Shown here one piece after another: positions 20,842 through 35,724 of a stretch of DNA of 39,271 nucleotides (position 1 is its first letter; each line of letters begins with the position of its first letter). Made by a program: the position numbers and the translations under genes. Origin of the DNA: a virus; IMG/VR virus record IMGVR_UViG_3300009091_000008, positions 1-39,271 of that record, one strand, 5' to 3'. The notes under the pieces are model-generated. The model was not told the origin of the DNA, ran no database searches, and saw only the letters and a list, made by a program, of their open reading frames with translations.

Positions 20842-20916
20842 TGGTGGCCCCGGCGGGGATCGAACCCGCGTTTCCAGCTTGAAGGGCTGGGGTCCTAACC
20901 GCTAGACCACGGGGCC
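20842..20916 (-). tRNA. tRNA-Glu (anticodon UUC)
   Basis: Read on the minus strand, GGCCCCG pairs with CGGGGCC to form the acceptor stem. The D arm is GTCTAGCGGTTAGGAC, the anticodon stem-loop is CCAGC-CCTTCAA-GCTGG with anticodon TTC (complement at 20881-20883), and the T arm is GCGGG-TTCGATC-CCCGC. The 3' CCA is encoded. It is the only minus-strand gene found and converges on the lysis genes. UUC reads GAA best, and GAA is the favoured Glu codon in this genome, so it probably supports phage translation. Confidence 0.95.
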
Positions 20917-21096: not shown

Positions 21097-21125
21097 TTGA
21101 CTGCCGTGTCACGGCGTGCTACATT
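21097..21125 (+). promoter_or_regulatory. Early promoter P1 with internal palindromic operator
   Basis: TTGACT (21097-21102) and TACATT (21120-21125) are 17 bases apart. The spacer contains GCCGTGTCACGGC, a perfect 6+1+6 palindrome. A protein bound there would cover the space between the two boxes and block or reshape polymerase binding. The expected start site falls on the ATG at 21132. Confidence 0.85.
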
Positions 21126-21131
21126 AGGGGC

Positions 21132-21275
21132 ATGACACAGGAACGTCTGAAACAGATGCGGGAACTGGCGGCGGCCCTGAACGGGATGGCTGACCTGGAA
21201 CGCGGCATCTGTGTGAGGCTGTGGGTGCTGGCGGCCGTATGGTGCGGCTGGTGGGCCCTGTTCCTGCTGGTCTGA
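21132..21275 (+). CDS. Small single-span membrane protein, probably leaderless
   Basis: The product has 47 residues: a polar helical N-terminal half (TQERLKQMRELAAALNGMADLERG) and a C-terminal hydrophobic segment (LWVLAAVWCGWWALFLLV). The ATG lies 6 bases after the -10 box of P1, at the expected transcription start, so the mRNA may begin at the AUG itself. The nearby AGGGG is too close to act as a normal ribosome site. It is the first gene of the early region. Role unknown; small early membrane proteins of phages often modify the host envelope or block superinfection. Confidence 0.6.
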   Translation: MTQERLKQMRELAAALNGMADLERGICVRLWVLAAVWCGWWALFLLV

Positions 21276-21287
21276 CAGGGGGACACG

Positions 21288-21485
21288 ATGGACACGAACA
21301 CGACGGAGCGGCTGGCCCAGGTGGAAGTGATAGCCCGGAGCCTTCACACCCTGCTGGGGGACCTGCTGCGGGTGGCGGACCAGGTGGTGCCGGACCACGT
21401 GGCCACGGACCCGGACCACGCCTATGGCCGCCTGGTGGACCGCGCGGAAGCCTACCTGCTGGAAGTGGAAGGGGTGCTGTCATGA
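21288..21485 (+). CDS. Small early protein
   Basis: The product has 65 residues. ATG 21288 follows CAGGGGGACACG, the shared early initiation site. The sequence is helical and acidic: a first helix (RLAQVEVIARSLHTLLGDLLRVAD), a short VVPDHVATDPDHAYGR turn and a second helix (LVDRAEAYLLEVEGVL). No cysteines or membrane segment. It is coupled to the following gene by ATGA. Function unknown. Confidence 0.6.
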   Translation: MDTNTTERLAQVEVIARSLHTLLGDLLRVADQVVPDHVATDPDHAYGRLVDRAEAYLLEVEGVLS

Positions 21486-22096
21486 AGCGGACCATTGGCA
21501 CCATTGAAGTGGCCCAGGACGTGGTGCTGCATTTCCAGGGCTACGAAACGGCCGCCTGGTGGGAAGACGTGAACGTGGCCGCGGGCAGCTACCCCGTCCA
21601 GGGGGAAGTGGACGCCCAGGGCAAGGTAAAAGACCTGGTGTTTTTCGGCCTTCCGGGCACGGTGGTGGCGGACTATTTCCGCAGTCTGTGGGGCGGGATG
21701 CCCATGGGCCAGGATTACGACCGCACCCAGAACGCAGGCAAGCCCAGTTCCTACCGGGGTTCCCTGTACCTGCACGCCAGCCACGGCCTGCTGAACGGGG
21801 GCGGCCAGGACCTGGGCCACGGGATGACGTTCCGGCTGGCGGATGACCTGCAAGCCACGGCCATCCAGGTTGACAGTTTCTGCCAGCCCGGAACGAAGGT
21901 CACCCTGGTGGACGTGCGGGCGGCCTTCCACGTGGAACGGGTCCGGCAGCGGGACGCCGTGGCCGTGAATGCGGCCCTGGTGGCGGCCAGGCTTCCGAAG
22001 TGGTGGACCCGGCACGATACGGACGGCCTGGTGACCATCGGGGTGGCACTGGACCAGGCCCAGGCCCTGCGGGACGCCGTGGCCCCCTGGCAGTAG
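21482..22096 (+). CDS. Early hypothetical protein
   Basis: The product has 204 residues. It starts with beta segments (IGTIEVAQDVVLHFQGYETAAWW) and continues with a KVKDLVFFGLPGTVVADYFRSLWGG segment and a His/Asp-containing middle (SLYLHASHGLLNGGGQDLGHG). The end is helical (DQAQALRDAVAPW). No Walker, HTH or other motif is clear. It is the last gene of the P1 transcript, since a strong terminator follows within 25 bases. Role unknown. Confidence 0.55.
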   Translation: MKRTIGTIEVAQDVVLHFQGYETAAWWEDVNVAAGSYPVQGEVDAQGKVKDLVFFGLPGTVVADYFRSLWGGMPMGQDYDRTQNAGKPSSYRGSLYLHASHGLLNGGGQDLGHGMTFRLADDLQATAIQVDSFCQPGTKVTLVDVRAAFHVERVRQRDAVAVNAALVAARLPKWWTRHDTDGLVTIGVALDQAQALRDAVAPWQ

Positions 22097-22118
22097 ATCC
22101 CCCAGCGGCCAGTGGAAG

Positions 22119-22147
22119 GGGCCCGGTCCGCCGGGCCCTTTTTCTTT
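22119..22147 (+). terminator. Rho-independent terminator of the P1 transcript
   Basis: GGGCCCGG (22119-22126) and CCGGGCCC (22131-22138) form a perfect 8-base stem with a TCCG loop, followed at once by TTTTTCTTT. This is the clearest intrinsic terminator in the window. The next early promoter starts only 11 bases after it. Confidence 0.9.
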
Positions 22148-22157
22148 GCGGAACCCC

Positions 22158-22186
22158 TTGACTCCCGTGTCACGCGGTGGTACATT
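22158..22186 (+). promoter_or_regulatory. Early promoter P2 with internal operator
   Basis: TTGACT (22158-22163), a 17-base spacer with CCCGTGTCACGCG, and TACATT (22181-22186). The GTG-T-CAC core is intact while the outer arms are imperfect. The predicted start site coincides with the base of the stem-loop at 22193. Confidence 0.85.
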
Positions 22187-22192
22187 CATTCC

Positions 22193-22214
22193 GTCAGGCC
22201 AAGGTGGCCAGGAC
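22193..22214 (+). promoter_or_regulatory. 5'-end stem-loop in the P2 leader
   Basis: GTC-A-GGCCA, loop AGG, then TGGCC-A-GGAC. It starts at the predicted first transcribed base. The same GTC-A-GGCC outline, with a different inner pair, occurs in the P4 leader. It may protect the 5' end or bind a protein. Confidence 0.55.
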
Positions 22215-22232
22215 AAAACGCAGGGGGACACA

Positions 22233-22970
22233 ATGGACGCCAGCACGTACCGGAGATGGGTGGTAAGGGAAGAACTGACCTGGCCCGAACGTGAACAGGT
22301 CTGGACCGTGCGGGACAACATGGCGGAAGGCGGGTTCTGGGACCCGCAGGCCACCAGGTTCCCCACGAAGGCGGAAGCGGACCAGGCCGTGGCGGACCTG
22401 GAAGCGGCCAGCGGGAACATGGACGGGGAAACGTCCCTGGCCTGGCACGTGGTGGTCACCTTCGGGGCGACCAGGGGCCGGTTCCGGGCGTGCAATTCCG
22501 CGGTGCGCTACGGGGTGGACCTGGCGGCCCTGGATGCGGCCATCTGGGCCCAGCAGGACGGATACGGGGTCAAGGGCTTCACCCCCGCCCAGGGCTGGGA
22601 CTGGTCCGGCATCCGGGACAGCAGCCACCTGGCCGTCCGCGATATGGCCCAGGCCATCCGGGAGAACCTGAAGGCCCAGGGGCTGGTGGTCAGAGTGGAA
22701 GCCCGCGGTAAGAGCGGACAGGTGGAAGTCACCTGGGCGCGGGCCCCCCGGCCGAAGGGCAGCAGCGGCGTGGTGAAGCATCAGGTGGTGGTGGACGGCC
22801 AGGTGCTGGCCATTCGGCGGTCCCCCCGCACGTACACCCACGCCGTGGTGGCCCGCTACACGGACGGCAGCCTGCACGTGGAGCGGTGGTCCCAGACCAG
22901 GAAGGCGGCGGATGCCTTTGCCCGGACGTTCACCAGGCCGCCGCTGGTGGTGGAAGTCACCCGGGGCTAG
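22233..22970 (+). CDS. Early hypothetical protein, mixed alpha/beta
   Basis: ATG 22233 follows GCAGGGGGACACA; an upstream in-frame ATG at 22146 lies before the promoter and is rejected. The product has 245 residues. The N-terminal region is helical and Trp/Glu-rich (YRRWVVREELTWPEREQVW). The middle has WHVVVTFGATRGRFRA, and there is a basic segment (RVEARGKSGQVEVTWARAPRPKG) that could touch nucleic acid. The C-terminal ~60 residues form a beta domain (HQVVVDGQVLAIRRSPRTYTHAVVARY). It is alone on its transcript. Function unknown. Confidence 0.55.
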   Translation: MDASTYRRWVVREELTWPEREQVWTVRDNMAEGGFWDPQATRFPTKAEADQAVADLEAASGNMDGETSLAWHVVVTFGATRGRFRACNSAVRYGVDLAALDAAIWAQQDGYGVKGFTPAQGWDWSGIRDSSHLAVRDMAQAIRENLKAQGLVVRVEARGKSGQVEVTWARAPRPKGSSGVVKHQVVVDGQVLAIRRSPRTYTHAVVARYTDGSLHVERWSQTRKAADAFARTFTRPPLVVEVTRG

Positions 22971-22993
22971 TCCCCCTGGCCCTGGGACGCGGG

Positions 22994-23025
22994 GGGCCTG
23001 GCTTCGGCCGGGCCCTTCGCGTTTT
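22994..23025 (+). terminator. Terminator with UUCG tetraloop
   Basis: GGGCCTGGC (22994-23002), loop TTCG, then GCCGGGCCC (23007-23015), with one G-U pair, followed by TTCGCGTTTT. The UUCG tetraloop makes the hairpin unusually stable. It ends the P2 transcript 12 bases before the -35 box of P3. Confidence 0.8.
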
Positions 23026-23036
23026 CAGGGGGGGAC

Positions 23037-23065
23037 TTGACAACGGTGTCACGGTGTGATACATT
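23037..23065 (+). promoter_or_regulatory. Early promoter P3 with internal operator
   Basis: TTGACA (23037-23042), a 17-base spacer containing ACGGTGTCACGGT, and TACATT (23060-23065). Its -35 box is a perfect consensus, so it may be the strongest of the set when not blocked. Confidence 0.85.
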
Positions 23066-23069
23066 AGCA

Positions 23070-23089
23070 GTGCTGGGCTGGTCCAGCAC
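23070..23089 (+). promoter_or_regulatory. 5'-end stem-loop in the P3 leader
   Basis: GTGCTGG (23070-23076) and CCAGCAC (23083-23089) pair perfectly around GCTGGT. The position relative to the start site matches the P2 and P4 hairpins, but the stem sequence is different, which favours a structural rather than sequence-specific role. Confidence 0.6.
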
Positions 23090-23107
23090 GGAACGCAGGG
23101 GGACACA

Positions 23108-23377
23108 ATGCGAAACCAGACACAGATAGAGCGGGACATTCTGATGGCCGTGGCCACGCTGCGGGACCTTCCCATGGCCACGGCGCGCACGGCCGAAGGG
23201 ATGGACCTGGGCGGCATGGACCGCGGGCTGGCGTACCGCCGCGCCCTGGCGGCCACCCGGCTGGTCCGCATGACCCTGAAGGCCGTGGAAGCGGACCTGG
23301 TGGGCCTTCAGACGCATGCCCACGTCTGGGGAGATGACAGCCGCTGCATGACCTGTGGCGCGGACGGGCTGGCCTGA
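23108..23377 (+). CDS. Small early protein with C-terminal Cys/His motif
   Basis: The product has 89 residues; ATG 23108 follows GCAGGGGGACACA. The first ~65 residues are helical (TQIERDILMAVATLRDLP, LAATRLVRMTLKAVEADL). The end HAHVWGDDSRCMTCGADGLA has two His and a CMTC pair and could bind one metal ion. It is the first gene on the P3 transcript and is coupled to the next gene by TGATG. Function unknown. Confidence 0.6.
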   Translation: MRNQTQIERDILMAVATLRDLPMATARTAEGMDLGGMDRGLAYRRALAATRLVRMTLKAVEADLVGLQTHAHVWGDDSRCMTCGADGLA

Positions 23378-23628
23378 TGGCCGCCGGGAAGGTCCACCTG
23401 GCCATTCACGCCCCGCTGGACCGCTGCACCCCCCAGCGGGGCACCATGACCCTGGACCGGGCCACCGGCCTGGTGACCGTGCGGCCCCTGCGGGCCCGGC
23501 GGGTTTACACCATGACCGTGGACTGGGTGGCCGGGGTGCTGGTCCAGGCCGTGCTGAAGGCGGAAGCCAGGGCCGCGGCCGCGGAGCGGAAGCCCAGGGC
23601 CCGCCGCGTCCGCCGCGGGGTGCTGTGA
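23377..23628 (+). CDS. Small early basic protein
   Basis: The product has 83 residues and starts at the ATG overlapping the preceding stop. The N-terminal half is beta-like (KVHLAIHAPLDR, GLVTVRPLRARRVYTMTVDWV), and the C terminus is strongly basic (AEARAAAAERKPRARRVRRGV). A nucleic-acid-binding role is possible from the charge alone. The stop overlaps the ATG of the metallohydrolase gene, so the three genes after P3 are translated as a tight unit. Confidence 0.55.
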   Translation: MAAGKVHLAIHAPLDRCTPQRGTMTLDRATGLVTVRPLRARRVYTMTVDWVAGVLVQAVLKAEARAAAAERKPRARRVRRGVL

Positions 23629-24263
23629 TGCGGGGCTGGGTGTCCGGGGACGTGCGGAGGGCCCTGGCACGGGCCCGGGACAGCGGGAACATGGGCCGCC
23701 TGGACCTGCTGCTGGCGGGCATAGAATCCGTCCCCCGGTCCGCCACCCGGGACCGGAAGCGGCTGGCCGTCTATGGCGCGGAGCGGGCCGCCTTCCGGGA
23801 CTGTACGGCCCGATACCCCAGCATTGCCGCCTGCCAGGAATACATAGACCGCTGCGTGGAAGACCGCCGCTTCCAGGCGGCCTTCCCCCACGTCAAGGCC
23901 ATCATGGTGAAGGCCAGCAGGTCCAGCAGGCGCATGGGTTCGTACTGGGGCGGGACCATCCAGGTATCGAAAGCCGGGCGGGTTTCCTGGGTGCTGCTGC
24001 ATGAACTGGCCCACGGGTGTGCGGACACCTGGCCGTCCCACGGCCGGGACTTCGTGAACGCTTACCTGGAACTGGTCCGGCTGTTCATGGGGGCCCCGGC
24101 CAGGAAGGCCCTGGCGGCGGAACTGCGGGCCCGGAAGGTGCCCCGCCGGGGGACGGACCTGGAAGCCTGGAAGACCAGGCAGCGGGCTACCTGCCGCCGG
24201 GCAGCACGTAAGGGCCGGGCCGCCGCGGCCACGTTCACTGTGGACCCGAAGAATAGCCCTTGA
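23628..24263 (+). CDS. Putative metallohydrolase, zincin type (TIGR04338-like)
   Basis: The product has 211 residues. WVLLHELAHGCADTWPSHGRDF gives the HExxH pair (His125, Glu126, His129) and a third ligand candidate His138 in SHG. The short spacing and the SHGRDFVNAYLELV tail resemble a group of small phage and actinobacterial metallohydrolases (TIGR04338) rather than classic secreted proteases. No signal peptide is present, so it acts in the cytoplasm. Its target is unknown. The C terminus is basic. Its stop codon lies inside the -35 box of P4. Confidence 0.68.
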   Translation: MRGWVSGDVRRALARARDSGNMGRLDLLLAGIESVPRSATRDRKRLAVYGAERAAFRDCTARYPSIAACQEYIDRCVEDRRFQAAFPHVKAIMVKASRSSRRMGSYWGGTIQVSKAGRVSWVLLHELAHGCADTWPSHGRDFVNAYLELVRLFMGAPARKALAAELRARKVPRRGTDLEAWKTRQRATCRRAARKGRAAAATFTVDPKNSP

Positions 24264-24288
24264 CTACCGTGTCACGCCGTGCTACATT
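24260..24288 (+). promoter_or_regulatory. Early promoter P4 with internal operator
   Basis: TTGACT (24260-24265), a 17-base spacer with ACCGTGTCACGCC, and TACATT (24283-24288). The -35 box overlaps the last codon of the metallohydrolase gene. No terminator is seen between P3 genes and P4, so the P3 transcript may read through. Confidence 0.85.
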
Positions 24289-24294
24289 AGCAGT

Positions 24295-24317
24295 GTCAGG
24301 CCGATGGACGGCCAGAC
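24295..24317 (+). promoter_or_regulatory. 5'-end stem-loop in the P4 leader
   Basis: GTC-A-GGCCG, loop ATGGA, CGGCC-A-GAC. Compared with the P2 leader the closing inner pair has changed from A-U to G-C while pairing is kept, and the A/A mismatch is at the same place. That is a small covariation signal for a real RNA structure. Confidence 0.6.
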
Positions 24318-24333
24318 GGAACAGGGGGACACA

Positions 24334-24729
24334 ATGAATAGGGTGCAGATGGAAGTCAGGGTGATGGGGACGGGGCCGCTGGCCCCCATGGCCGCGGCCA
24401 GCATTCTGGCGGACCGCCTGAACGGCCACGGGGCCGGGCAAGTCCAGCAGGACCTGCACATGGACTACCTGGCCATTCGTGCCGCCCAGTCCCACGTGAG
24501 GCTGCTGAACCTGCGGGCCCGGCGGGTGGTGGGCGGTGACCTTCGCTGCGGGAATGACCCGGTGGTGACCGTGGACTGTGAAGTCCACGTGGAACAGGCC
24601 AGCACGGCCATCAATCAGGTCCGGATGCTGCTGACGGGCCCCCGGCCGATGGGCACGGGTCACGCTCCGGACCCCACGGTGGACGTGCTGGACGTGACCG
24701 TGACGCCGCTGGTGCGGAAGGCCCGCTGA
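24334..24729 (+). CDS. Early hypothetical protein
   Basis: ATG 24334 follows ACAGGGGGACACA, and the upstream in-frame ATG at 24304 lies inside the leader hairpin, so it is rejected; the product has 131 residues. Segments alternate between strands and helices: VQMEVRVMG, APMAAASILADRLNG, QSHVRLLNLRARRVVGG, VVTVDCEVHVEQASTAINQVRMLL and DVLDVTVTPLVRK. It may be a small alpha/beta protein. There is no recognisable motif. A strong hairpin separates it from the next gene. Confidence 0.55.
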   Translation: MNRVQMEVRVMGTGPLAPMAAASILADRLNGHGAGQVQQDLHMDYLAIRAAQSHVRLLNLRARRVVGGDLRCGNDPVVTVDCEVHVEQASTAINQVRMLLTGPRPMGTGHAPDPTVDVLDVTVTPLVRKAR

Positions 24730-24740
24730 ACGAACGAACA

Positions 24741-24764
24741 GGGGGCCCGGCTGCCCGGGCCCCC
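24741..24764 (+). terminator. Strong GC hairpin without U-tract
   Basis: GGGGGCCCGG (24741-24750) pairs perfectly with CCGGGCCCCC (24755-24764) around CTGC. CCTGGGGGACACC and the next ATG follow directly, so the stem ends just before the ribosome site of the 24777 gene. It may act as a partial terminator or pause, or as a processing barrier. Confidence 0.5.
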
Positions 24765-24776
24765 CTGGGGGACACC

Positions 24777-25475
24777 ATGAACGTGACAGTGAAACATGAA
24801 GGCCCGCGGGGATGCGGGCACCGGAAGCCGGGCGGCCTGTACCTGGTGACGGACGGTCTGGGCCAGCCCTGTGGCCGTCTGCCCCTTCCGCTGGTCTGCT
24901 GTCCCACCTGTGGCCAGGGCATCCGCCCGGCCCGCGGCTGGTCCTGGGTGGACCCGCGGCCCATCATCCAGATGGCGCCCCCCTGCGTGAACAGCCCGGC
25001 GGCCTGCGGCGGGTGTCCGCTGTCCAGGGCGGACGGCCTGGGGGAACGGGCGGGCATCATCTGGGTGGGGGAACAGTTCTACCGGACGCCCACGGAATTC
25101 AACGTGGAAGCTGCCCGCATGGGCGTGTCCCGCCGCATCCACCAGGTGCCCAAAGACTTCAAGCTGGGCCAGACCTGGGTGCTGCTGGCCCATCGGAAGG
25201 CCATCCGGACAACCTGTCCGGCCTGCCACGGCCTGGGCCGGGTGCTGGACGTGAACGGCCCGGTGGACTGTGAACCCTGCAAGGCCGTGGGGTCCACCTG
25301 GCTGCCCGGCATCTTCCACGCCTTCCAGCCTGCCAGGATTGAATACGTGGTCCGGGACCAGGACACGGACGAAGCCCTGGAACGCCTGGTGGCCCGCGGC
25401 ATCACGCCCGTGAGGGTGGTCCCGGTGCCCGCGGAAGGGCCAGGACTGTTCGCGGAGGGGGCAGACCATGCGTGA
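24777..25475 (+). CDS. Cys-rich zinc-binding phage protein
   Basis: The product has 232 residues. Three likely metal sites are visible: the opening GCGHRKPGGLYLV with CGRLPLPLVCCPTCGQGI; CVNSPAACGGCPL near 75-90; and CPACHGLGRVLDVNGPVDCEPC near 145-165, which resembles a DnaJ-type zinc finger. The CGHRKPGGLYLV start is familiar from uncharacterised phage early proteins. The C-terminal part (YVVRDQDTDEALERLVARGITPVRVVPV) is alpha/beta. It could bind DNA, RNA or a host protein. It overlaps the next gene by eight bases. Confidence 0.65.
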   Translation: MNVTVKHEGPRGCGHRKPGGLYLVTDGLGQPCGRLPLPLVCCPTCGQGIRPARGWSWVDPRPIIQMAPPCVNSPAACGGCPLSRADGLGERAGIIWVGEQFYRTPTEFNVEAARMGVSRRIHQVPKDFKLGQTWVLLAHRKAIRTTCPACHGLGRVLDVNGPVDCEPCKAVGSTWLPGIFHAFQPARIEYVVRDQDTDEALERLVARGITPVRVVPVPAEGPGLFAEGADHA

Positions 25476-25977
25476 CGGCAAGCTGTCGGCCGCGGATCTT
25501 CGGTTCCTGCGGCACCTGCTGGATGGGGGCCGGGCTGTGATGACGCCCGGCCACGGCCTGGGCGTGTACCACCCGTCAGGGGTGCGCTACGGCCTGTCCG
25601 GCACGTACCCCTACAAGCTGTCCCAGCGGGGCCTGGTGGCCGTGGGGGGCCTGCTGGACGGCCAGCGGGCCGTAGCCCTGACCCCGGACGGGGCCCTAGT
25701 GGCGGAAGCCCACCAGCACACCACGGCCCTGCCGGATGCAGCCCTGAACCTGCTGGACCACCTGGCCCGTGGCCGCCTGGCCTGGGTGGGCCTGGGCGGG
25801 AAGCTGTGGCTGGCTGGCAAGCTGTCAGGCCATCTGGCCCCGGCCATGGTGGCCCTGCTGGACGCGGGCTATGCCCAGGTGATGGACCCGGATATGCCCA
25901 GGTGTCCTGACCGGCGGGTGCTGCTGACCACGGCGGGCCGCCGGTTCTATCACGACCTGACCACCGTATCGTCTTGA
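25468..25977 (+). CDS. Early hypothetical protein, possible winged-helix
   Basis: The product has 169 residues and starts at ATG 25468, inside the end of the preceding gene. It seems to hold two similar halves. LSAADLRFLRHLLDGGRAV...YPYKLSQRGLVAVGG...VALTPDGALVAE is followed by LPDAALNLLDHLARGRLAW...APAMVALLDAGYAQVM...VLLTTAGRRFYHDL. Each half runs helix-helix-hairpin and then a short LT-x-x-G segment, the style of winged-helix folds with a final 'LTPxG' strand. DNA binding is possible but not shown. Its stop codon overlaps the -35 box of P5. Confidence 0.5.
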   Translation: MRDGKLSAADLRFLRHLLDGGRAVMTPGHGLGVYHPSGVRYGLSGTYPYKLSQRGLVAVGGLLDGQRAVALTPDGALVAEAHQHTTALPDAALNLLDHLARGRLAWVGLGGKLWLAGKLSGHLAPAMVALLDAGYAQVMDPDMPRCPDRRVLLTTAGRRFYHDLTTVSS

Positions 25978-26013
25978 CGTGCCACGGGGCTGGAAGTATA
26001 ACGGCGTGACACG
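25974..26013 (+). promoter_or_regulatory. Promoter P5 with two operators
   Basis: TTGACG (25974-25979), a 17-base spacer and TATAAC (25997-26002). One palindrome core, CGTGCCACG, overlaps the -35 box (25978-25986). A second, CGTGACACG, covers the start site (26005-26013). This is the only member of the family with two cores, and its -10 box is nearest consensus. The double site suggests tight, possibly auto-regulated control of the gene behind it. Confidence 0.75.
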
Positions 26014-26029
26014 GGCCCGCTGCGGGCCC
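26013..26029 (+). promoter_or_regulatory. Leader hairpin of P5
   Basis: GGGCCCG (26013-26019), loop CTG, CGGGCCC (26023-26029), directly after the second operator and before GGGAGG. It is another stem-loop close to the 5' end of an early transcript. Confidence 0.5.
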
Positions 26030-26046
26030 TGGATGGGAGGAATGCC

Positions 26047-26277
26047 ATGGGGAAGATGGGGACCAGGCCGGTGGTTTTTGGCAGCCACCTGCCACTGCGC
26101 GTGGATGATGCCAAGCTGAAGGAAGTGGAGCGGGTCCAGGCGGACGTGGCGCGGGACCGCAGCTATACGGTCCGCTATCTGCTGGACCTGGGGCTGGCCC
26201 AGCATCGGGCCCGGATGCAGAAACGGGCCGCGGACCGCGCCTATCAGGCCCGGAAGCGGTCCACCGGGCGGGTGTGA
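26047..26277 (+). CDS. Ribbon-helix-helix-like protein, candidate operator-binding repressor
   Basis: The product has 76 residues with a GGGAGG ribosome site. VVFGSHLPLRVDDAKLKEVERV begins with a possible beta strand and a first helix; ARDRSYTVRYLLDLGLAQHRA fits the turn and second helix of Arc/MetJ/CopG-type repressors. The C-terminal tail is very basic (ARMQKRAADRAYQARKR). Such dimers bind short palindromes. It lies directly behind P5, whose two GTGNCAC palindromes would allow self-control. It is my first choice for the protein that reads the operators of the early promoter family; this link is inference. Confidence 0.55.
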   Translation: MGKMGTRPVVFGSHLPLRVDDAKLKEVERVQADVARDRSYTVRYLLDLGLAQHRARMQKRAADRAYQARKRSTGRV

Positions 26278-26504
26278 TGGTGGGACGGGGGGACACGTCC
26301 AGCCGGGCCCGGGTCAACGTCACCCTGCTGGGCAAGGTGCTGGGGGAGAAATTCGCGTCCCGCCTGCCGGAAGACGTGCGGCGGCACTACCAGGACCACC
26401 CCGAACACCTGGGGCCGGACCTGAAGCTGGTGGCCCTTTACTGCGTGCTGATTGTGGAACTGGGCGTGGCCATCGCACTGCTGGCCGCCTGGGCCGTGAA
26501 CTGA
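26277..26504 (+). CDS. Small C-tail-anchored membrane protein
   Basis: The start is ATG 26277, in a TGATG overlap with the previous stop (a GTG one codon earlier is also possible); the product has 75 residues. A polar N-terminal part (SSRARVNVTLLGKVLGEKFASRLPEDVRRHY) precedes one C-terminal membrane segment (LVALYCVLIVELGVAIALLAAW). It is coupled to the exonuclease gene by a further TGATG. Function unknown. Confidence 0.55.
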   Translation: MVGRGDTSSRARVNVTLLGKVLGEKFASRLPEDVRRHYQDHPEHLGPDLKLVALYCVLIVELGVAIALLAAWAVN

Positions 26505-26515
26505 TGGGGGAGAAC

Positions 26516-27448: not shown

Positions 27449-27450
27449 CC

Positions 27451-27687
27451 ATGCGGTTTCTCAAGGACGAAGAACTGGCCTGGTCGCCTGCGTCCGTCAC
27501 GGCGGACTGGCTGGCAATGCAGCGGGAACAGCGGGTGGCCATGGTAGAGGAACTGGCCTATGCCCGGGCCGTGGTGCGGGAATTCAAGGTCCTGAATTTC
27601 CAGGAACGGGTGAACCTGCCCAGCGGCCTGCGGTCCGGCCTGGACCACTACCTGCGGAAGCTGGCCGGGGACGGGGTGGTGCTGTGA
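27451..27687 (+). CDS. Small early protein downstream of exonuclease
   Basis: The product has 78 residues; the ribosome site is AGGGGGCCTGACC. It is helical throughout (SVTADWLAMQREQRVAMVEELAYARAVVREFK) with a C-terminal FQERVNLPSGLRSGLDHYLRKLAGDG segment. A closely similar FQERVDL segment occurs in the HTH protein at 28230. The last four bases (GTGA) overlap the start of the next gene. Function unknown. Confidence 0.55.
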   Translation: MRFLKDEELAWSPASVTADWLAMQREQRVAMVEELAYARAVVREFKVLNFQERVNLPSGLRSGLDHYLRKLAGDGVVL

Positions 27688-28184
27688 AGCCCCCGGACGG
27701 CTGGACGTGTCCGATGGGACGGCCCTGGGCGGACCACGAAGGGCCCAGCCCCGGGTTCCTGCACGTGGTAGGGCGGGGAGGGGTGGGCTGCATCCCAGCC
27801 AACCGCACCCAGCCAGCCATGGCGACTGGGCCCGGCCCAGTGGAACGGAACACCCTGTGGGACGAAGTGGCCGAACAGGACCACCCGGCCGTGCGGAACA
27901 CGGACCTGGACACCAGCCACGAAGCCTGGGCCATGGTGGAACCTGTGGCGGGCGCCCTGCGGGCTATGGTGCTGGTCCACCTGCGGACGCAGGGCCCGGC
28001 CACCTGCGGTGAAATCGCCCTGGCCCATGACTACCCCAGGGACAGCATCAGCCCCCGCATGGCTGAACTGCGGCATAAGGGGCTGGTGGAGAACAGCGGG
28101 ACGAAGCGGCGGATGCCTGGCAAGAAGTCCAGGCAGACGGTCTGGCAGGCCGTGCCGCCGGACGGCCCGGGAGAAACAGATTGA
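27684..28184 (+). CDS. Winged-helix DNA-binding protein
   Basis: GTG start at 27684; the product has 166 residues. The N-terminal third is Pro/Gly-rich and may be flexible. The C-terminal half has the typical phage wHTH layout: LRAMVLVHLRTQGPATCGEIALAHDYPRDSISPRMAELRHKGLVENSG, that is, a helix, a recognition-type helix (SISPRMAELRHKG) and a wing (KRRMPGKKSRQTVWQAV). It probably binds DNA as a regulator or in replication. The stop codon lies in the -35 box of P6. Confidence 0.65.
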   Translation: MKPPDGWTCPMGRPWADHEGPSPGFLHVVGRGGVGCIPANRTQPAMATGPGPVERNTLWDEVAEQDHPAVRNTDLDTSHEAWAMVEPVAGALRAMVLVHLRTQGPATCGEIALAHDYPRDSISPRMAELRHKGLVENSGTKRRMPGKKSRQTVWQAVPPDGPGETD

Positions 28185-28210
28185 CGCCACGTGCCACGTG
28201 GTGTTACATT
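28181..28210 (+). promoter_or_regulatory. Early promoter P6 with perfect 15-base palindrome
   Basis: TTGACG (28181-28186) and TACATT (28205-28210) are 18 bases apart. The spacer starts with CCACGTGCCACGTGG (28187-28201), a perfect 7+1+7 palindrome and the longest in the family. The leader is only about 13 bases, and the ribosome site GGGGGA lies almost at the 5' end. Confidence 0.85.
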
Positions 28211-28229
28211 AGGGCTGGGGGACACGAAG

Positions 28230-28709
28230 ATGAAAAGAACCGGAACGCGGGTCCTGACCTTGGCCGAAGCGGCCGCCCGGTCGGGACTGTCCAAAGCCAC
28301 CCTGAACCGTGCAGCCAAGCTGGGGGGCCTGCCAGCCACCCGGATTCCAGGCGGCCACCTGGACTGGATGGTAAGGGCCCGGGACGTGGACGCCTTTGTC
28401 AAGGCCAGGGGCGCCAGGAAGCGGAAGGCCCGTGGCGGCGGACCTGAACTGGGGCAGGCAAACAGTCTGCCATTCCAGGACCCCTGGAAGGGGAAGGTCA
28501 AGAAGCTGGACCCGGCCCCGGTGCCCGCGCCCGGCCAGGACGTGCGGCTGGTGACGGTCGGCGGGTTCCAGGAACGGGTGGACCTGACGGACCGGGCGGC
28601 CCGGAACCTGGGGATGCTGAAACACTGGACGGCCGCGCCCACGGCCGAAGTCCTGGATGCGGCCCTGGTGGCCCTGGCCCGGGAACTGGGCCTGCACGGG
28701 GTGGAGTGA
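28230..28709 (+). CDS. HTH regulator, excisionase/MerR-like N terminus
   Basis: ATG 28230 is chosen because it follows GGGGGACACGAAG and the upstream in-frame ATG lies before the -10 box; the product has 159 residues. VLTLAEAAARSGLSKATLNRAAKLGGLPATRIPGGHLDWMVRARDVDAFV is a winged HTH of the excisionase/MerR kind. A basic linker (KARGARKRKARGGG) and a second small domain (FQERVDLTDRAARNLGMLKHW, VLDAALVALAREL) follow. It is the second candidate, after the ribbon-helix-helix protein, for control of the early promoters. No integrase is present, so excision is unlikely to be its job. Confidence 0.68.
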   Translation: MKRTGTRVLTLAEAAARSGLSKATLNRAAKLGGLPATRIPGGHLDWMVRARDVDAFVKARGARKRKARGGGPELGQANSLPFQDPWKGKVKKLDPAPVPAPGQDVRLVTVGGFQERVDLTDRAARNLGMLKHWTAAPTAEVLDAALVALARELGLHGVE

Positions 28710-28885
28710 TGGGCGTTCCCACCGTACAAGAAGCCTGGATGCTGGTCCGTGGGGACCTGGGCATGGCCGACGTGGACCAGCCCCCGGACCTGTTCATGGC
28801 GGGCTGGACAGCCTACACCACCCTGGTGGCCGGGCCCCAGGCGGAAGCCCTGTGCAACCTGCTGTCCCGCCTGTTAGACGACTGA
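28709..28885 (+). CDS. Very small early protein
   Basis: The product has 58 residues; its ATG overlaps the stop of the HTH gene (TGATG). The sequence is GVPTVQEAWMLVRGDLGMAD, a DVDQPPDLFMAGWTAYTT segment and AEALCNLLSRLLDD, which is helical and acidic. Translational coupling and codon use like its neighbours support it as a real gene. Function unknown; it may act with the HTH protein. Confidence 0.6.
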   Translation: MGVPTVQEAWMLVRGDLGMADVDQPPDLFMAGWTAYTTLVAGPQAEALCNLLSRLLDD

Positions 28886-28924
28886 CCTTCAACCCGCGGC
28901 GGATGCCGCATAGTGGGGTGAGAC

Positions 28925-30010
28925 GTGGCAGAACAGAACGGAAGCGGACTGGTCCCGCAGTCTACGGGGTTCCTGGAACAGCAGCAGGGACCGGACGGCA
29001 GCCTGGCCACCCTGGGCCGGGAACAGTCCGGCATTCAAGCTGGGCTGGTGATCGCAAAGCGGTTCCCCCGGGACGAAACCCGGGCCGCGGCCAGCATCCT
29101 GAACACCTGCCGCCGGGCGGGGTTCGCGGAGCGGGCCCGCTACAGCTTCCCCCGGGGCGGGTCCACGGTGGAAGGGCCCAGTATCGTCCTGGCCAGGGAA
29201 ATGGCCATCCGCTGGGGGAACGTCCGGCACGGTTTCACGGTGACGGAGTGGACCCCGGACCGGGTGACCGTGGAAGGCTGGGCCGTGGACCTGGAAACGA
29301 ACACCTGGGCCACGTCTTCCGCCACCTTTGCCCGGCGGGTCCAGCGGAAGAACAAACAGACGCGGCAGACGGAGTGGGTGAAGCCGGACGAACGGGACGA
29401 ACGGGAACTGGTCAACCGGCACGGGGCGACTGCCCAGCGGAACGCCATCCTGCAAGTGATCCCCCGGGACATTGTGGATGACGCCATGACCCAGGTACGG
29501 AAGACGCTGGTGGACGCGGAAGCCGGACACCTGAAGTCTGACCCGGCCCGGGCCCGCCGCCTGCTGCTGTCCGCCCTGATGGACCTGGGGGTGACCCCGG
29601 ACCAGGTGGACGCCTATCTGGGCCGCCCGCTGGACCAGGCGACGGCGGAACAGATGGCGGACCTAAAGGGGGTGGGCCAGGCCATCGCGGAAGGCCAGGT
29701 GACCCGGGACGAAGTGTTCCCGCCCACCCAGCGGGAGGGCTCACCGCAGGCCGCCAGGCCCACTGACCCCCTGGACGCTCTAGCTGCGTCCCTGCCGAAC
29801 GCGGAACCGAACCCTGCCACCCAGCCAGCCCCGGTCACGAACGCCCCGCAGGCGCCCACAGGCGCGCAAGGCGGGCCCACTACGGTGGACTGCCCCGGAT
29901 GCGGGGCGAAGCTGACCGATGGGGCATCCCTTTGCCCGGATCCGGATTGTCCGTCTAACGTGACCGGAACGGTCCAGGAACCCATCACGAAGGGTTCCCG
30001 GAAGCGGTAA
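28925..30010 (+). CDS. Putative single-strand annealing protein with C-terminal zinc ribbon
   Basis: GTG start at 28925; the product has 361 residues. AGLVIAKRFPRDETRAAASILNTCRR, then FPRGGSTVEGPSIVLAREMAIRWGNVRHGFTVTEW, VEGWAVDLETNT and NRHGATAQRNAILQVIPRDIVDDA match a widespread phage family thought to be a RecT/Red-beta-like annealing protein. The pairing with YqaJ supports this. A disordered Pro/Ala-rich linker (~260-315) ends in CPGCGAKLTDGASLCPDPDCP, a four-Cys zinc ribbon not usual for annealing proteins; it could recruit another replication factor. Confidence 0.65.
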   Translation: MAEQNGSGLVPQSTGFLEQQQGPDGSLATLGREQSGIQAGLVIAKRFPRDETRAAASILNTCRRAGFAERARYSFPRGGSTVEGPSIVLAREMAIRWGNVRHGFTVTEWTPDRVTVEGWAVDLETNTWATSSATFARRVQRKNKQTRQTEWVKPDERDERELVNRHGATAQRNAILQVIPRDIVDDAMTQVRKTLVDAEAGHLKSDPARARRLLLSALMDLGVTPDQVDAYLGRPLDQATAEQMADLKGVGQAIAEGQVTRDEVFPPTQREGSPQAARPTDPLDALAASLPNAEPNPATQPAPVTNAPQAPTGAQGGPTTVDCPGCGAKLTDGASLCPDPDCPSNVTGTVQEPITKGSRKR

Positions 30011-30017
30011 ACTGCCC

Positions 30018-30041
30018 GGCCCCCGGCAAACGTCGGGGGCC
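30018..30041 (+). terminator. Hairpin between annealing and replication genes
   Basis: GGCCCCCG (30018-30025) pairs perfectly with CGGGGGCC (30034-30041) around GCAAACGT. ATTCCGCACACGTTTC follows, so no strong U-tract is present. It probably reduces but does not end transcription. Confidence 0.45.
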
Positions 30042-30068
30042 ATTCCGCACACGTTTCAGGGGGACACT

Positions 30069-31193
30069 GTGGCCCAGTATCGGACAGTGGACTGCCGCAT
30101 CTGGGGGGACCAGCGGTTTCTGGGGCTTCCCGATGCTTCCAAGCTGGCCTGGCTTTACCTGCTGACGCACCCCAACCAGACGGCCGTGGGGGCGTTCATG
30201 GCCACCCTGCCCGGGCTGTCCGCGGAACTGGGATGGCCCACGGCGGAACCCTTCCATGCCGTGCTGGCGGCGGGGATGGCCCTGCATGACCCGGCGGCCC
30301 GGATGTTCCTGCTGCCGCGTTTCATTCACTACAATCAGCCCCAGAATGTCAACCAGGTGAAGGGCTGGGCCCGGCCCCTGTCCCTGCTGCCGGAGTGCGG
30401 ATTGAAGCTGCGGCTGCTGGGGACGCTGCGGTCCTGGCTGGCGGAACACGGCAAAGACGGGATGCTGGAAGCCTTCCATGCGGCCTTCCCCCAGGACCCA
30501 GCGGAAGATGCCGCCATGCAGGAACACTATCGGAACCCTTCGGGAACGGTTCCGCCAACCGTTTCGAAATCAGGAACAGGAACAGGAACAGGAACAGGAA
30601 CAGGAATCCCCCCCTTACCCCCCCCTGTGGGGGGGTTCGTATCGGGCCCGACCGGGAAGCGGAAGCGGACGGCCCCGGCCCGGCCGTATAGCCAGGAATT
30701 CCTGGCGTTCTGGGATGCCATCCCAGCGAACCCGCGGAAGGTGAACCAAGACGGGGCATGGCGTATCTGGAAGGCTAAGGGGCTGGACCAGGAAGCGGAC
30801 CGCCTGGTGACCTGGGCTCGGGGGATGGGGCAATGCCACCAGTGGGTGGTGGACCAAAACATCCCGCTTGTCACCACCATGCTAAATCAGGACCGCTGGA
30901 AGGCACCGCTGCCCCGGGAAGTCCAGGCAGCCGCGCCACCCCAGCGGACCCCTGAACAGGAAGCGGACGCCTGGCGGATGGCCCGGCTGGGCTTCCTGCT
31001 GGCAGACCTGACCCGGGCCGTTCTCAAGAAACATGGGCTGGACCTGAAGCGGGAAGGCCAGGGGGCCATGGCTTGTCTGCTGGTCCTGGAAGCGGCCAGG
31101 AAGAACGGCCAGGACTTCAAGCCAGGGCACCATCCGGATGCTTTGATCCAGGCAGCCATGGAAGCCTGGGAACGTGGGCGCAAAGAAGCGTAG
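30069..31193 (+). CDS. O-like replication initiation protein
   Basis: GTG 30069 follows CAGGGGGACACT; the product has 374 residues. The N-terminal ~110 residues form a winged-helix unit common in phage initiators (YRTVDCRIWGDQRFLGLPDASKLAWLYLLTHP, MFLLPRFIHYNQPQNVNQVKGW). A Thr-Gly repeat and Pro-rich linker lie at ~168-190. The second domain (YSQEFLAFWDAIPANPRKVNQDGAWRIWKAKG, then IPLVTTMLNQDRWKAPLP) is the familiar C-terminal part of phage O/DnaD-like proteins that contacts the host helicase loader or helicase. It probably binds an origin and loads the host replisome. No phage polymerase was found. Confidence 0.75.
   Translation: MAQYRTVDCRIWGDQRFLGLPDASKLAWLYLLTHPNQTAVGAFMATLPGLSAELGWPTAEPFHAVLAAGMALHDPAARMFLLPRFIHYNQPQNVNQVKGWARPLSLLPECGLKLRLLGTLRSWLAEHGKDGMLEAFHAAFPQDPAEDAAMQEHYRNPSGTVPPTVSKSGTGTGTGTGTGIPPLPPPVGGFVSGPTGKRKRTAPARPYSQEFLAFWDAIPANPRKVNQDGAWRIWKAKGLDQEADRLVTWARGMGQCHQWVVDQNIPLVTTMLNQDRWKAPLPREVQAAAPPQRTPEQEADAWRMARLGFLLADLTRAVLKKHGLDLKREGQGAMACLLVLEAARKNGQDFKPGHHPDALIQAAMEAWERGRKEA
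30572..30607 (+). repeat. Tandem 6-base repeat inside the replication gene
   Basis: AGGAAC is repeated five times in a row and followed by AGGAAT. It encodes a Thr-Gly linker. As in lambda, where origin repeats lie inside the initiator gene, it may also be an origin element; alternatively it is only a linker grown by slippage. Confidence 0.6.
30619..30635 (+). repeat. C7-TGT-G7 perfect hairpin inside the replication gene
   Basis: Seven Cs and seven Gs flank TGT, 11 bases after the AGGAAC repeats. It could form a very stable cruciform or RNA stem. It encodes Pro-Pro-Val-Gly-Gly and may be part of an origin. Confidence 0.5.
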
Positions 31194-31389
31194 GGGCCAG
31201 GTCCAGGTGTTGGCCATCCTGCTGGACGGGCGCCAGCGGCTGGTGAACGCTGACTGCTGGGTGCAGGGCCGGGACCTGGTGCTGCCAGCGTTCCTACAGG
31301 ACCCGGAACAGGACGTTCCCAGGGTTTTCGGACACGTCGGGGAACATCGGACCGTTCCGGTCTATATCGAAGTTCAGGGGGACTGCTGA
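31174..31389 (+). CDS. Small early protein
   Basis: GTG 31174 overlaps the previous gene by 20 bases and gives 71 residues; a GTG at 31207, after TAGGGGCCAG, would give 60. The product is beta-rich (QVQVLAILLDGRQRLVNADCWVQGRDLVLP, RTVPVYIEVQGD). There is no known motif. The second start avoids the overlap and is also credible. Function unknown. Confidence 0.45.
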   Translation: MGAKKRRGQVQVLAILLDGRQRLVNADCWVQGRDLVLPAFLQDPEQDVPRVFGHVGEHRTVPVYIEVQGDC

Positions 31390-31405
31390 TGGACGGGGGC
31401 AGACC

Positions 31406-31642
31406 ATGACCAGGGAAATACGGCTGACGAAGAAACAGGGGGCCAGGTTCCTGAAGGGCCACCGCACGGAAACCACCAGGCGCGTGGTGGTGATGGTGGA
31501 CGGCCTGACCACCCGGACGGCCCGGGCTTCGGCCAAGCTGCCGCCGGACGTGGCCCAGGCACTGGCAGACCACCTGGCCCTGGAAATGGACGCCTGGCTG
31601 AAAATGGACGCCTGGCTGTCCACCCCGCGGAAACAGCCTTGA
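31406..31642 (+). CDS. Small early protein with internal duplication
   Basis: The product has 78 residues; ATG 31406 follows GGGGGCAGACC. A basic N terminus (TREIRLTKKQGARFLKGHRTETTRR) precedes a VVVMVDGL strand, a helix (PPDVAQALADHLALEMDAWL) and a tandem copy of MDAWL caused by an 18-base duplication. The stop codon overlaps the -35 box of P7. Function unknown. Confidence 0.55.
   Translation: MTREIRLTKKQGARFLKGHRTETTRRVVVMVDGLTTRTARASAKLPPDVAQALADHLALEMDAWLKMDAWLSTPRKQP
31584..31618 (+). repeat. In-frame 18-base tandem duplication
   Basis: AAATGGACGCCTGGCTG occurs at 31584-31600 and again at 31602-31618, an offset of exactly 18 bases. It adds six codons without a frameshift. The copies are identical, so the event is probably recent. 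Confidence 0.85.
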
Positions 31643-31668
31643 CAGACGGTGGCACGCCGTCATACGTT
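31639..31668 (+). promoter_or_regulatory. Early promoter P7 with internal operator
   Basis: TTGACA (31639-31644), an 18-base spacer with GACGGTGGCACGCCGTC, and TACGTT (31663-31668). The core is GTG-G-CAC. The outer arms GACGG and CCGTC pair, but the inner part is less regular than in P1 or P6. The predicted start is close to 31674, just before the shared initiation site. Confidence 0.75.
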
Positions 31669-31688
31669 AGCCCATGAAGGGGGACACA

Positions 31689-32099
31689 ATGAACCCAGGC
31701 GAAAACGGCCAGGAACAGGACAAGTGCAGGGCGGAAGTGCAGGTGAGGGGCCTTTTCGGACAGTACGCCCGATGCCAGCGGGCCGCATTCGTGGATGGGT
31801 GGTGTTACCAGCACCATCCCGATGCCCAGGCCGCCCGGGACCGTGCGTCTGCCCAGCGGTATGACCGGCAACTGTGGCCAGGCCGGGTCAAAGACAACGC
31901 CCAGGCCGCCTGCAAGCTGGCCGGGGCCCTGCTGGAAACCATGGTGGAAGTGGGGGCGGCGCCCGCGGACTATCGGGCCCTGGCGGACTACCTGACGGAC
32001 TGCGGGAACTGGAACGGCGACAATGCCACCCGGCCCCTGCTGTCCCAGGACGTGCTGGGCCACTATACGCCCCTGGCCGTGGACCGGACGGATCCATGA
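31689..32099 (+). CDS. Early zinc-finger-like protein
   Basis: ATG 31689 follows AAGGGGGACACA; the in-frame ATG at 31674 lies at the expected transcript start and is less likely. The product has 136 residues. CRAEVQ...YARCQRAAFVDGWCYQHHPDAQAARDRA gives a C...C...C-x2-H-H arrangement, a small zinc finger often seen in phage early proteins. The rest is helical (NAQAACKLAGALLETMVEVGAAPADYRALADYL). It probably binds nucleic acid or a host protein. It is coupled to the next gene by ATGA. Confidence 0.6.
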   Translation: MNPGENGQEQDKCRAEVQVRGLFGQYARCQRAAFVDGWCYQHHPDAQAARDRASAQRYDRQLWPGRVKDNAQAACKLAGALLETMVEVGAAPADYRALADYLTDCGNWNGDNATRPLLSQDVLGHYTPLAVDRTDP

Positions 32100-32410
32100 C
32101 ACCCGCCCGGCTGGCTGCCCTGCGGCTGCTGCGGGATGAAGGGCCCCTGACAGCATCCTGGCTGGCCTTCCGGCTGTGGGGGAAGCCAGGCGCGGCCGGT
32201 TCCCAGGCGCGGCGGGCGTGGGTGCTGTCTGCCGGAGCCTACCTGGGCAAGCTGCGGGCAGCCCACCTGGCCAGGAAGAATGCCGCCAGCGGCCAGTGGA
32301 CCCTGACGCAGCACGGCCAGGACTGCCTGGCCCATGCTGAACTGGACCTGCTGACCAGGGCCCTGGCGAGTTTCAAAACGTCAAAAACTACACACCAGAA
32401 CGGGGGGTGA
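32096..32410 (+). CDS. Small winged-helix-like protein
   Basis: The product has 104 residues and starts in the ATGA overlap at 32096. ARLAALRLLRDEGPLTASWLAFRLWG, ARRAWVLSAGAYLGKLRAAHLARK and SGQWTLTQHGQDCLAHA follow the helix-helix-wing order of a winged HTH ending in a 'WxLTxxG' strand. The C-terminal tail is polar. DNA binding is likely but not certain. It follows the zinc-finger gene on the P7 transcript. Confidence 0.55.
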   Translation: MTPARLAALRLLRDEGPLTASWLAFRLWGKPGAAGSQARRAWVLSAGAYLGKLRAAHLARKNAASGQWTLTQHGQDCLAHAELDLLTRALASFKTSKTTHQNGG

Positions 32411-32413
32411 AGG

Positions 32414-32623
32414 ATGCCGGGGGCATGGTGGTGGCTGACCGTCTGGCTGGCGGCGGCCGGGCTGTTCTACGTGGCCGGGGTGGCCTTCAAGTCCAGCAGC
32501 GGTGAAACGCCCAGCGGAAGCTGGGTTCTACTCTGGTCTGCCGTCTGCCTGGCCTGGCCCTGGACCATGGGGCTGACCGTGGTGGGCTTCGTGCTGGGCG
32601 TGACGGCCAGACGGAGGGGGTGA
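32414..32623 (+). CDS. Small two-span membrane protein
   Basis: The product has 69 residues. Two hydrophobic segments (WWWLTVWLAAAGLFYVAGVAF and LLWSAVCLAWPWTMGLTVVGFVLG) flank a short polar turn (KSSSGETPSGS); the C terminus is basic (TARRRG), which suggests both ends face the cytoplasm. It starts three bases after the preceding stop. A superinfection-exclusion or accessory-holin role is possible but unproven. Confidence 0.55.
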   Translation: MPGAWWWLTVWLAAAGLFYVAGVAFKSSSGETPSGSWVLLWSAVCLAWPWTMGLTVVGFVLGVTARRRG

Positions 32624-32626
32624 CCT

Positions 32627-33013
32627 GTGCGGCGGAAGCGGCAGCGGATGTTGGAAGCCACAGGGAAGCTGGACCGGAACCGGGAACCGGACCCGGCATC
32701 CAGGTTCCTGGACGGGGTGGCCCTAGACTTCAACCTGGCAGTGGATGGGCTGGACCGGGTGCGGGTGCTGCTGGGCGCAAAGCCCCACGTTCGCTGCCTG
32801 GTCCGGACGGAATACCATCCTGGCAGGACCATGATGGACCAGAACGCCGTCCGGGTGGGCTGGGGCAGCAGGTGGACGGACTGGCTGGGCTGGGCCCTAT
32901 TTCAGCCCCTGGAATGGGGCGTGGAACGTCCGGTGGCTTTGGCCTGGCGGGCCTGGAAGCGTGTCCAGGGCATGTTCCACGTGGAACGCCAGGCGGAAGG
33001 GGGCCAGCCATGA
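32627..33013 (+). CDS. Early hypothetical protein
   Basis: GTG 32627 follows GGAGGGGGTGACCT; the product has 128 residues. The start is very basic (RRKRQRMLEATGKLDRNR), then a helix (FLDGVALDFNLAVDGLDRVRVLL). A Trp-rich stretch (VGWGSRWTDWLGWALFQPLEWG) could lie on the membrane surface. It ends WKRVQGMFHVERQAEGG and overlaps the next ATG by four bases. Function unknown. Confidence 0.5.
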   Translation: MRRKRQRMLEATGKLDRNREPDPASRFLDGVALDFNLAVDGLDRVRVLLGAKPHVRCLVRTEYHPGRTMMDQNAVRVGWGSRWTDWLGWALFQPLEWGVERPVALAWRAWKRVQGMFHVERQAEGGQP

Positions 33014-33396
33014 CTGGCGCGGAGGAACGGGCCGCACGGGTGGAGTGGGGGAACATCCCCATTGCCTTCCGCCCTGAGTGGGAATCGTACTGGCTGGGCT
33101 GGCAGGCCCGCGCCGCCCGCGCCGGGAAGGGGCCATACACCTTCGACTGTGACGCCGAAGTGATCCGCGATGCAGACGGGATCATCGTCCAGTGGAAGGA
33201 GATCCTTGCTTGCCTCAACGCCCGCGCCGGGGGTGAGCAGGCCATCGTGGAGGCGGCGCGGCGGATCAGCCCCGACGAGTGGCGCATAGCAGTCCATGAA
33301 GCGGAAGGCGAGTCGCGGACGATAGCTAGCAAGCTGCGCGCCCTCGCCTCCGCCGTGGAGGCCCAGCCCGCCCCGCCACGCGAGGGGAAGCCGTGA
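33010..33396 (+). CDS. Chimeric-looking small protein with atypical codon use
   Basis: The product has 128 residues. The first ~42 (TGAEERAARVEWGNIPIAFRPEWESYWLGW) use codons like the rest of the phage. From about 33140 the style changes: Glu becomes mostly GAG (7 of 10), CTC appears, and Arg is often CGC. The second part (CDAEVIRDADGIIVQWKEILACL, AIVEAARRISPDEWRIAVHEAEGESRTIASKLRALASAVE) is helical, with no known motif. The change points to recent import of the 3' part, from the host or another phage. The stop overlaps the next ATG. Confidence 0.55.
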   Translation: MTGAEERAARVEWGNIPIAFRPEWESYWLGWQARAARAGKGPYTFDCDAEVIRDADGIIVQWKEILACLNARAGGEQAIVEAARRISPDEWRIAVHEAEGESRTIASKLRALASAVEAQPAPPREGKP

Positions 33397-33647
33397 TGCG
33401 GCCGACCCGTGTTCCCCAGCCAGTGGTTTTCATAGCCCACCTGATTGATGCCCTGCGGCATCCTGGGGAATCCAGACTACATGCCGCGGAACGGACGCTG
33501 CTAGAGGAAGCCCTGTGGACCGCCCGGGGCTGCCAGCAGGCCGCGGCTGAAGACCTGGGCATCAGCCCCAGGGTCATGAATTACAAGCTGGGCAAGCGGG
33601 CCATGCGCCCGAAGGATAGAAAGCCCACCACGCCAGTGGACAACTGA
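33396..33647 (+). CDS. Fis-type HTH protein
   Basis: The product has 83 residues; ATG 33396 follows GAGGGGAAG and overlaps the previous stop. The C-terminal half ERTLLEEALWTARGCQQAAAEDLGISPRVMNYKLGKRAMRPKD matches the Fis/NtrC-type DNA-binding helix-turn-helix (an 'AA..LGIS.r....KL' core). The N-terminal part is short and has no receiver or ATPase domain. It is probably a small DNA-bending or regulatory protein, perhaps for late genes. Promoter P8 lies across its stop codon. Confidence 0.68.
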   Translation: MRPTRVPQPVVFIAHLIDALRHPGESRLHAAERTLLEEALWTARGCQQAAAEDLGISPRVMNYKLGKRAMRPKDRKPTTPVDN

Positions 33648-33680
33648 CAGGCATGGGCGTATGTTACACGCCGTGACACG
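33637..33680 (+). promoter_or_regulatory. Promoter P8 with operator at the start site
   Basis: TGGACA (33637-33642), 17 bases, TATGTT (33660-33665). The palindrome core CGTGACACG (33672-33680) sits at the expected start site, in inverted orientation relative to P1-P4. A GGGGC-GGAC-GCCCC stem-loop (33684-33697) follows in the leader. It serves the operon of secreted and membrane proteins. Confidence 0.55.
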
Positions 33681-33708
33681 TAAGGGGCGGACGCCCCGGG
33701 AGGGTTCC

Positions 33709-34508: not shown

Positions 34509-34512
34509 TGTA

Positions 34513-35015: not shown

Positions 35016-35044
35016 AACGCCCCCGGAGCGGGGCTAAAGGAGCG

Positions 35045-35707: not shown

Positions 35708-35724
35708 ACGTCCGTAAAAAGACC

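Follow-up and report, generated by a model that had tools for sequence, protein, structure and literature searches.

The early region of an IMG/VR phage contig (IMGVR_UViG_3300009091_000008; 39,271 bases, 67% G+C; hereafter the window, i.e., the whole contig at this length) raises a question of control: can eight predicted promoters (P1-P8), dispersed between positions 21097 and 33680, be governed by one operator and one protein, and which protein would that be? A preliminary description of this DNA had proposed that P1-P4 are near identical and P5-P8 are variants, and that each carries a GTGNCAC-centred palindrome through which one protein could switch off the early region. That P1-P8 form one predicted regulon with a shared operator is confirmed as an observation on the DNA. 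As for the regulator, we consider it fairly probable that an autoregulated ribbon-helix-helix (RHH) protein of 76 amino acids (aa), encoded at 26047-26277, represses this regulon; binding of the operator by this protein, the resulting repression and its timing are what we infer.

Eight promoters with one operator

The motif search suggested in the preliminary description bore out the promoter pattern. The combination TTGAC-17/19-TAC[AG]TT occurs six times, compared to 0.01 per shuffled genome. All four of P1-P4 match TTGACN-17-TACATT exactly, and the remaining four are indeed variants, with an 18-nucleotide spacer in P6 and P7 and weaker hexamers in P5 and P8. Alignment of the eight sites yielded an 18-bp motif, SGTGNCACGNSGTGNTAC, and a matrix scan of the whole genome returned exactly eight sites at 22.1-27.6 bits, the next best site scoring 14.8; none of 300 dinucleotide shuffles reached 22 bits. 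It should be noted that the matrix was derived from the same eight sites that it scores; leave-one-out scores were 16.9-26.1, still above the best other site. Each of the eight falls within a non-coding gap, although such gaps account for 7.2% of the early region, and the scan found no motif copy beyond the promoters anywhere in the genome. The earlier choice of GTGNCAC as the motif had to be abandoned, since this string is too short and by itself is not enriched (19 occurrences versus 21.4 expected); the box CGTGNCACG is enriched (16 strand-hits versus 2.8 expected, a count matched by none of 300 shuffles). The two perfect palindromes described before, 13 bases in P1 (GCCGTGTCACGGC) and 15 bases in P6 (CCACGTGCCACGTGG), are both present.

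The operator consists of two 9-bp palindromic boxes, CGTGNCACG and the weaker CGTGNTACA, with centres 10 bp, i.e., one helical turn, apart. Each box (CGTG-N-CACG and CGTG-N-TACA) is locally palindromic, the second imperfectly, the two are equal at 5-7 of 9 positions, and the whole is a looser palindrome. In P1-P4, P6 and P7, the operator fills the spacer between -35 and -10. The proposed location in the spacer or at the start site is thus upheld, with the correction that in P5 and P8 the operator is on the opposite strand, over the -10 element and the start. Because it is reversed in these two promoters, the operator is a separate binding site and not part of the sigma-factor signal. The spacers of P6 and P7 are one base longer, yet the distance from operator to -10 is unchanged, and six promoters share the same register. 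Such a register would also suit an activator site, i.e., a conserved spacer that is part of the promoter and switches it on. We find this very unlikely, since a site in the spacer or across the start normally acts to block polymerase, both hexamers are already near consensus, and P5 and P8 have the motif in reverse and at a shifted position.

Among P1-P4, conservation is 0.8-0.9 within the promoters and 0.2-0.4 beyond their edges, which speaks against a copied promoter cassette. Because the similarity stops there, we infer that selection on a binding site has kept the sites, and not duplication of a longer cassette. Across the whole genome, every plus-strand TTGAC-N16-19-TA(N3)T combination has the palindrome; on the minus strand, two such combinations are without it. 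What stands of the proposal that one protein silences the early region is that, wherever a consensus early promoter can be recognised, one operator appears positioned to block RNA polymerase. The sites could instead serve chiefly to block elongation, or in replication or partition, and repress initiation as a secondary effect; the stoperators of mycobacteriophage L5 have been proposed to affect elongation too (PMC9283540). All motif copies in the window are at promoters, unlike stoperators, and we give this explanation a minimal probability.

All eight promoters are on the plus strand. P1 (21097-21125; TTGACT-17-TACATT) has its operator, CGTGTCACGGCGTGCTAC, in the spacer at 21105-21122. An ATG at 21132 falls at the expected transcription start (21120-21134); because start codon and expected start site coincide, the first P1 transcript may be leaderless. 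P2 (22158-22186; TTGACT-17-TACATT; operator 22166-22183) has a GC-rich hairpin and a T-run immediately upstream (22125-22137), which resemble an intrinsic terminator, and a strong GC-rich hairpin (about 22987-23022) lies upstream of P3 (23037-23065; TTGACA-17-TACATT; operator 23045-23062). Given the hairpins before P2 and P3, the early region appears to be divided in part into short transcription units, one after another. The -35 element overlaps the stop codon of the preceding gene in both P4 (24260-24288; TTGACT-17-TACATT; operator 24268-24285) and P7 (31639-31668; TTGACA-18-TACGTT; operator 31648-31665). P5 (25974-26013; TTGACG-17-TATAAC) carries the full operator on the minus strand at 25996-26013, and it alone has an extra single box, CGTGCCACG, at 25978-25986, over the -35 element. 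P6 (28181-28210; TTGACG-18-TACATT; operator 28190-28207) leads to a gene with an HTH_17 domain and to the replication block. P8 (33637-33680; TGGACA-17-TATGTT; operator on the minus strand at 33663-33680) is the weakest of the eight; it is counted as early only provisionally, with terS, terL and the portal gene downstream of it, and it may link early shut-off to the late genes. A near-identical ribosome-binding leader, GGGGGACAC(A/G)ATG, is found just upstream of 21288, 22233, 23108, 24334 and 31689, and precedes the first or second gene in several of the operator-controlled units.

The candidate repressor

The first gene behind P5 (26047-26277, plus strand) encodes the predicted RHH DNA-binding protein, which matches the profile phrog_4738, annotated "transcriptional repressor", with an E-value of 3e-5 (7e-7 in a search of one genome). 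In bacterial genomes, this profile matches N-terminal RHH domains of NikR-type proteins, the NikR label being our own reading of these sequences. Because the profile picks such proteins through their RHH domain, phrog_4738 is, judged by its matches, an RHH family. The shape of the operator points in the same direction. Within each palindrome, about 4 bp separate the half-boxes. An RHH dimer places a beta-ribbon in a single major groove, and such dimers line up in pairs on the DNA. For example, AmrZ of Pseudomonas, a repressor of its own gene, occupies two half sites as a dimer of dimers (PMC3325190). Closely set boxes at a distance of one turn would suit RHH dimers better than a classical helix-turn-helix (HTH) dimer, because the half-box centres are too close for the two heads of the latter.

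We also found the operator in an unrelated, AT-rich phage contig (L016; G+C 42%), with two promoters of the form TTGAC-N-GTGCCACNCTGTGCTACA that score 18.5 and 18.9 bits (two sites of at least 18 bits, versus 0.001 expected per shuffled contig). Directly downstream of one of these promoters is a gene for a 48-aa Arc-like RHH repressor (phrog_582, E-value 1.7e-5), and a search for relatives of this repressor returned only itself. It should be noted that L016 was picked from a large collection and that its weight lies in the combination of two sites, their placement at promoters and the RHH gene; taken in this way, the pairing of operator and RHH gene is suggestive as independent support for an RHH regulator. 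Other matches were set aside. The phage contigs L030-L037 have one operator-like promoter each, placed as a promoter should be, and four related ones have it before the same gene; they were not used as support, since no RHH gene was found in their records, one weak match excepted. In these four (L031, L033, L036 and L037), TTGACAGGGTGGCACGGTGTGGTACACTG is found a short distance upstream of a gene for a protein of about 680 aa, apparently a T7-type DNA polymerase; the same operator shape is seen here in another phage group. Hits in L017-L020 and L026-L029 were read as chance or single matches, and direct repeats in distant relatives gave no comparable regulon.

Several observations weigh against the 76-aa protein as an RHH repressor of P1-P8. 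Its RHH assignment is a single profile match over 42 residues; searches of Pfam, NCBIfam and PDB with the protein gave no match, and a profile made from NikR domains alone fails to recover it. Two AlphaFold models, built on one and two sequences, too shallow an input to be decisive, lack the RHH fold and show a strand followed by a single long helix (predicted template modelling score 0.4; no PDB match with Foldseek). The protein has 19% identity to the L016 repressor in a gapped alignment, with no recognisable kinship beyond the fold, and for comparison we found no closer relative of either the phage or this protein. No Arc-like gene was found in the other contigs with an operator-like promoter. 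Finally, further DNA-binding proteins are encoded in the early region, and the regulator could be one of these or a host factor.

If another phage protein read the same operators, the candidates would be an HTH_17/excisionase-like protein (28230-28709, plus strand; PF12728, 5e-9; phrog_66, 2e-9), which is the first gene behind P6; a Fis/NtrC-type HTH_8 protein (33393-33647, plus strand; PF02954, 9e-8), encoded immediately before P8; and the winged-helix-like proteins at 27684-28184, which has weak ArsR/MarR-type matches, and at 32096-32410. We regard this as unlikely: the spacing of the half-boxes is too narrow for classical HTH dimer heads, the extra box is found only at P5, in front of the RHH gene, and L016 couples this operator with an RHH gene. 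Alternatively, a host transcription factor would read the site, the phage having borrowed a host operator to time its early genes. The candidate phage regulators are known from sequence alone, and single operator-like promoters are seen in other phages, too, as well as in a few genomes of bacteria. However, a widespread host operator or regulon was rejected as too rare: a search of 84,980 genomes of bacteria and archaea, not aimed at the genome of the phage's own host, gave only 4 exact matches, with no contig containing more than one, and a related pattern was seen in 1 of 397 genomes of one family. A host factor is therefore quite improbable in our judgement.

Proposed mechanism and the question of immunity

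With the RHH protein as the preferred repressor, the sequence of events would be as follows. On entry, host sigma-70 polymerase would initiate at P1-P8. The RHH protein would accumulate from the P5 transcript, occupy the operators and turn down the other early promoters, and it would limit itself via P5, the sole promoter with an extra box. At each operator, two small protein dimers would bind next to each other on the same face of the double helix, with one major groove read by each. Bound in the spacer, or at the -10 element and the start, they would exclude host RNA polymerase.

Profile searches found no tyrosine or serine integrase and no resolvase among the proteins of the genome. They found no HTH_3/CI-type repressor above the cut-off either; HTH_3 appeared below the cut-off only, inside the HTH_17 gene. 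Thus, a lambda-type immunity region, i.e., a CI-type HTH_3 repressor together with an integrase, was not found in the genome. The earlier statement that no classic immunity region is present holds to this extent, but a dispersed-operator repressor can itself confer immunity. Because no integrase was found, the regulon may serve lytic early shut-off or the maintenance of a non-integrating (plasmid-like) prophage; both are possible.

Relation to known dispersed-operator systems

One sequence-specific site is repeated at several promoters of one phage. By its apparent working principle, this is a dispersed-operator system, and by sequence it is a member of none of the L5, MrpR and F55 systems. 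The closest known system is F55 of the archaeal virus SSV1, a small RHH protein that acts on a short repeated site at several early promoters and at its own, over promoter elements, and represses them (PMC5569661, PMC9608457). There are, however, clear differences: the SSV1 promoters are archaeal (B recognition element, BRE, and start site), the F55 site, ATAGATAGAGT, is unrelated to the operator described here, and SSV1 has a known carrier state, whereas the present phage is known from sequence only. In SPbeta, the master repressor MrpR acts on an element (SPBRE) repeated in about ten promoter regions of one prophage (PMC10516654). The fold of MrpR is that of a tyrosine recombinase and its element is 15 bp long, whereas no integrase-family domain was found in the window.

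In mycobacteriophage L5 (cluster A), one repressor acts at many dispersed sites (PMC9283540). The L5 sites are 13 bp long and asymmetric, are recognised by a repressor monomer that has two HTH-type domains, and are not confined to promoters, whereas the operator described here has 18 bp in two palindromic boxes and an RHH candidate; sites outside promoters, as in cluster A, were not found in the genome. The L5-type stoperator, whose sequence we take to be GGTGGMTGTCAAG, was also sought directly and has no match in the genome at 0 or 1 mismatch; matches with 2 mismatches are scattered over the genome, none of them at P1-P8. The absence of L5 sites agrees with the earlier view that the sequence is unrelated to that of multi-site repression in some actinobacteriophages. 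Like the candidate, Arc and Mnt of phage P22 and AmrZ are RHH repressors; their box sequences and spacing differ from those seen here. Arc and Mnt exert local control of one or two promoters. Dispersed operators over many early promoters are also used by the C1 repressor of phage P1 and the c repressors of phiC31, which are other proteins with other operator sequences.

Genome context

The contig ends (1-37 and 39235-39271) are 37 identical bases within the GGAACCGGA repeat of a portal-MuF gene, which continues across both ends; because of this, the genome is probably complete and circularly closed (circular or circularly permuted). Head, tail and lysis genes occupy 0-20.8 kb. An intact tRNA-Glu (TTC) gene (20842-20916, minus strand) separates this structural module from P1, on the strand opposite to the phage genes. 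The early region that follows contains small genes, including those for a RecE/YqaJ exonuclease, a DnaD-like replication protein and a protein from a family with some members annotated as RecT-like. The last block consists of terS, terL and portal. One early protein (23628-24263) has a HELAH motif, as in zinc metalloproteases, and no Pfam or PHROG match. Palindromes close in sequence to GTTCCACGTGGAAC, similar to bacterial parS sites, are located at 32973-32988, 21924-21939 and 24581-24596, and in a fourth place at 1671 (8 strand-hits in 4 places with at most 3 mismatches versus 0.65 expected). The first three may stem from codon bias, because they sit in coding frames that read (F/V)HVE.

No phage record with DNA similarity to the window was found, and searches via the terminase, capsid, RHH and early proteins gave only distant terminases (26-35%) and one fragment. 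This fragment, a 5.98-kb contig (L005; IMGVR_UViG_3300006224_000690), is 99.97% identical to positions 32117-38091, P8 included, and by this identity is a second sampling of the same phage.

Implications

A complete, testable early regulon is defined here in a phage with almost no database relatives, a probable repressor is named, and a searchable operator sequence is supplied. Because the pairing of operator and RHH gene recurs in the unrelated phage L016, the operator could be used to find such regulons. Most likely, this is a known strategy, that of dispersed operators, realised with another type of repressor and with a site of unrelated sequence. It is possible, although we hold it with some doubt, that it goes further: an integrase-less bacterial phage with its whole early programme, including replication, under one autoregulated RHH repressor at eight dispersed promoters, as a counterpart of F55, with the same operator-RHH pairing in L016. 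If this is true, RHH proteins, which in bacterial phages are mostly known as local switches, can be genome-wide controllers of early genes, and P1-P8 would provide a ready-made set of promoters for studying how operator position sets repression.

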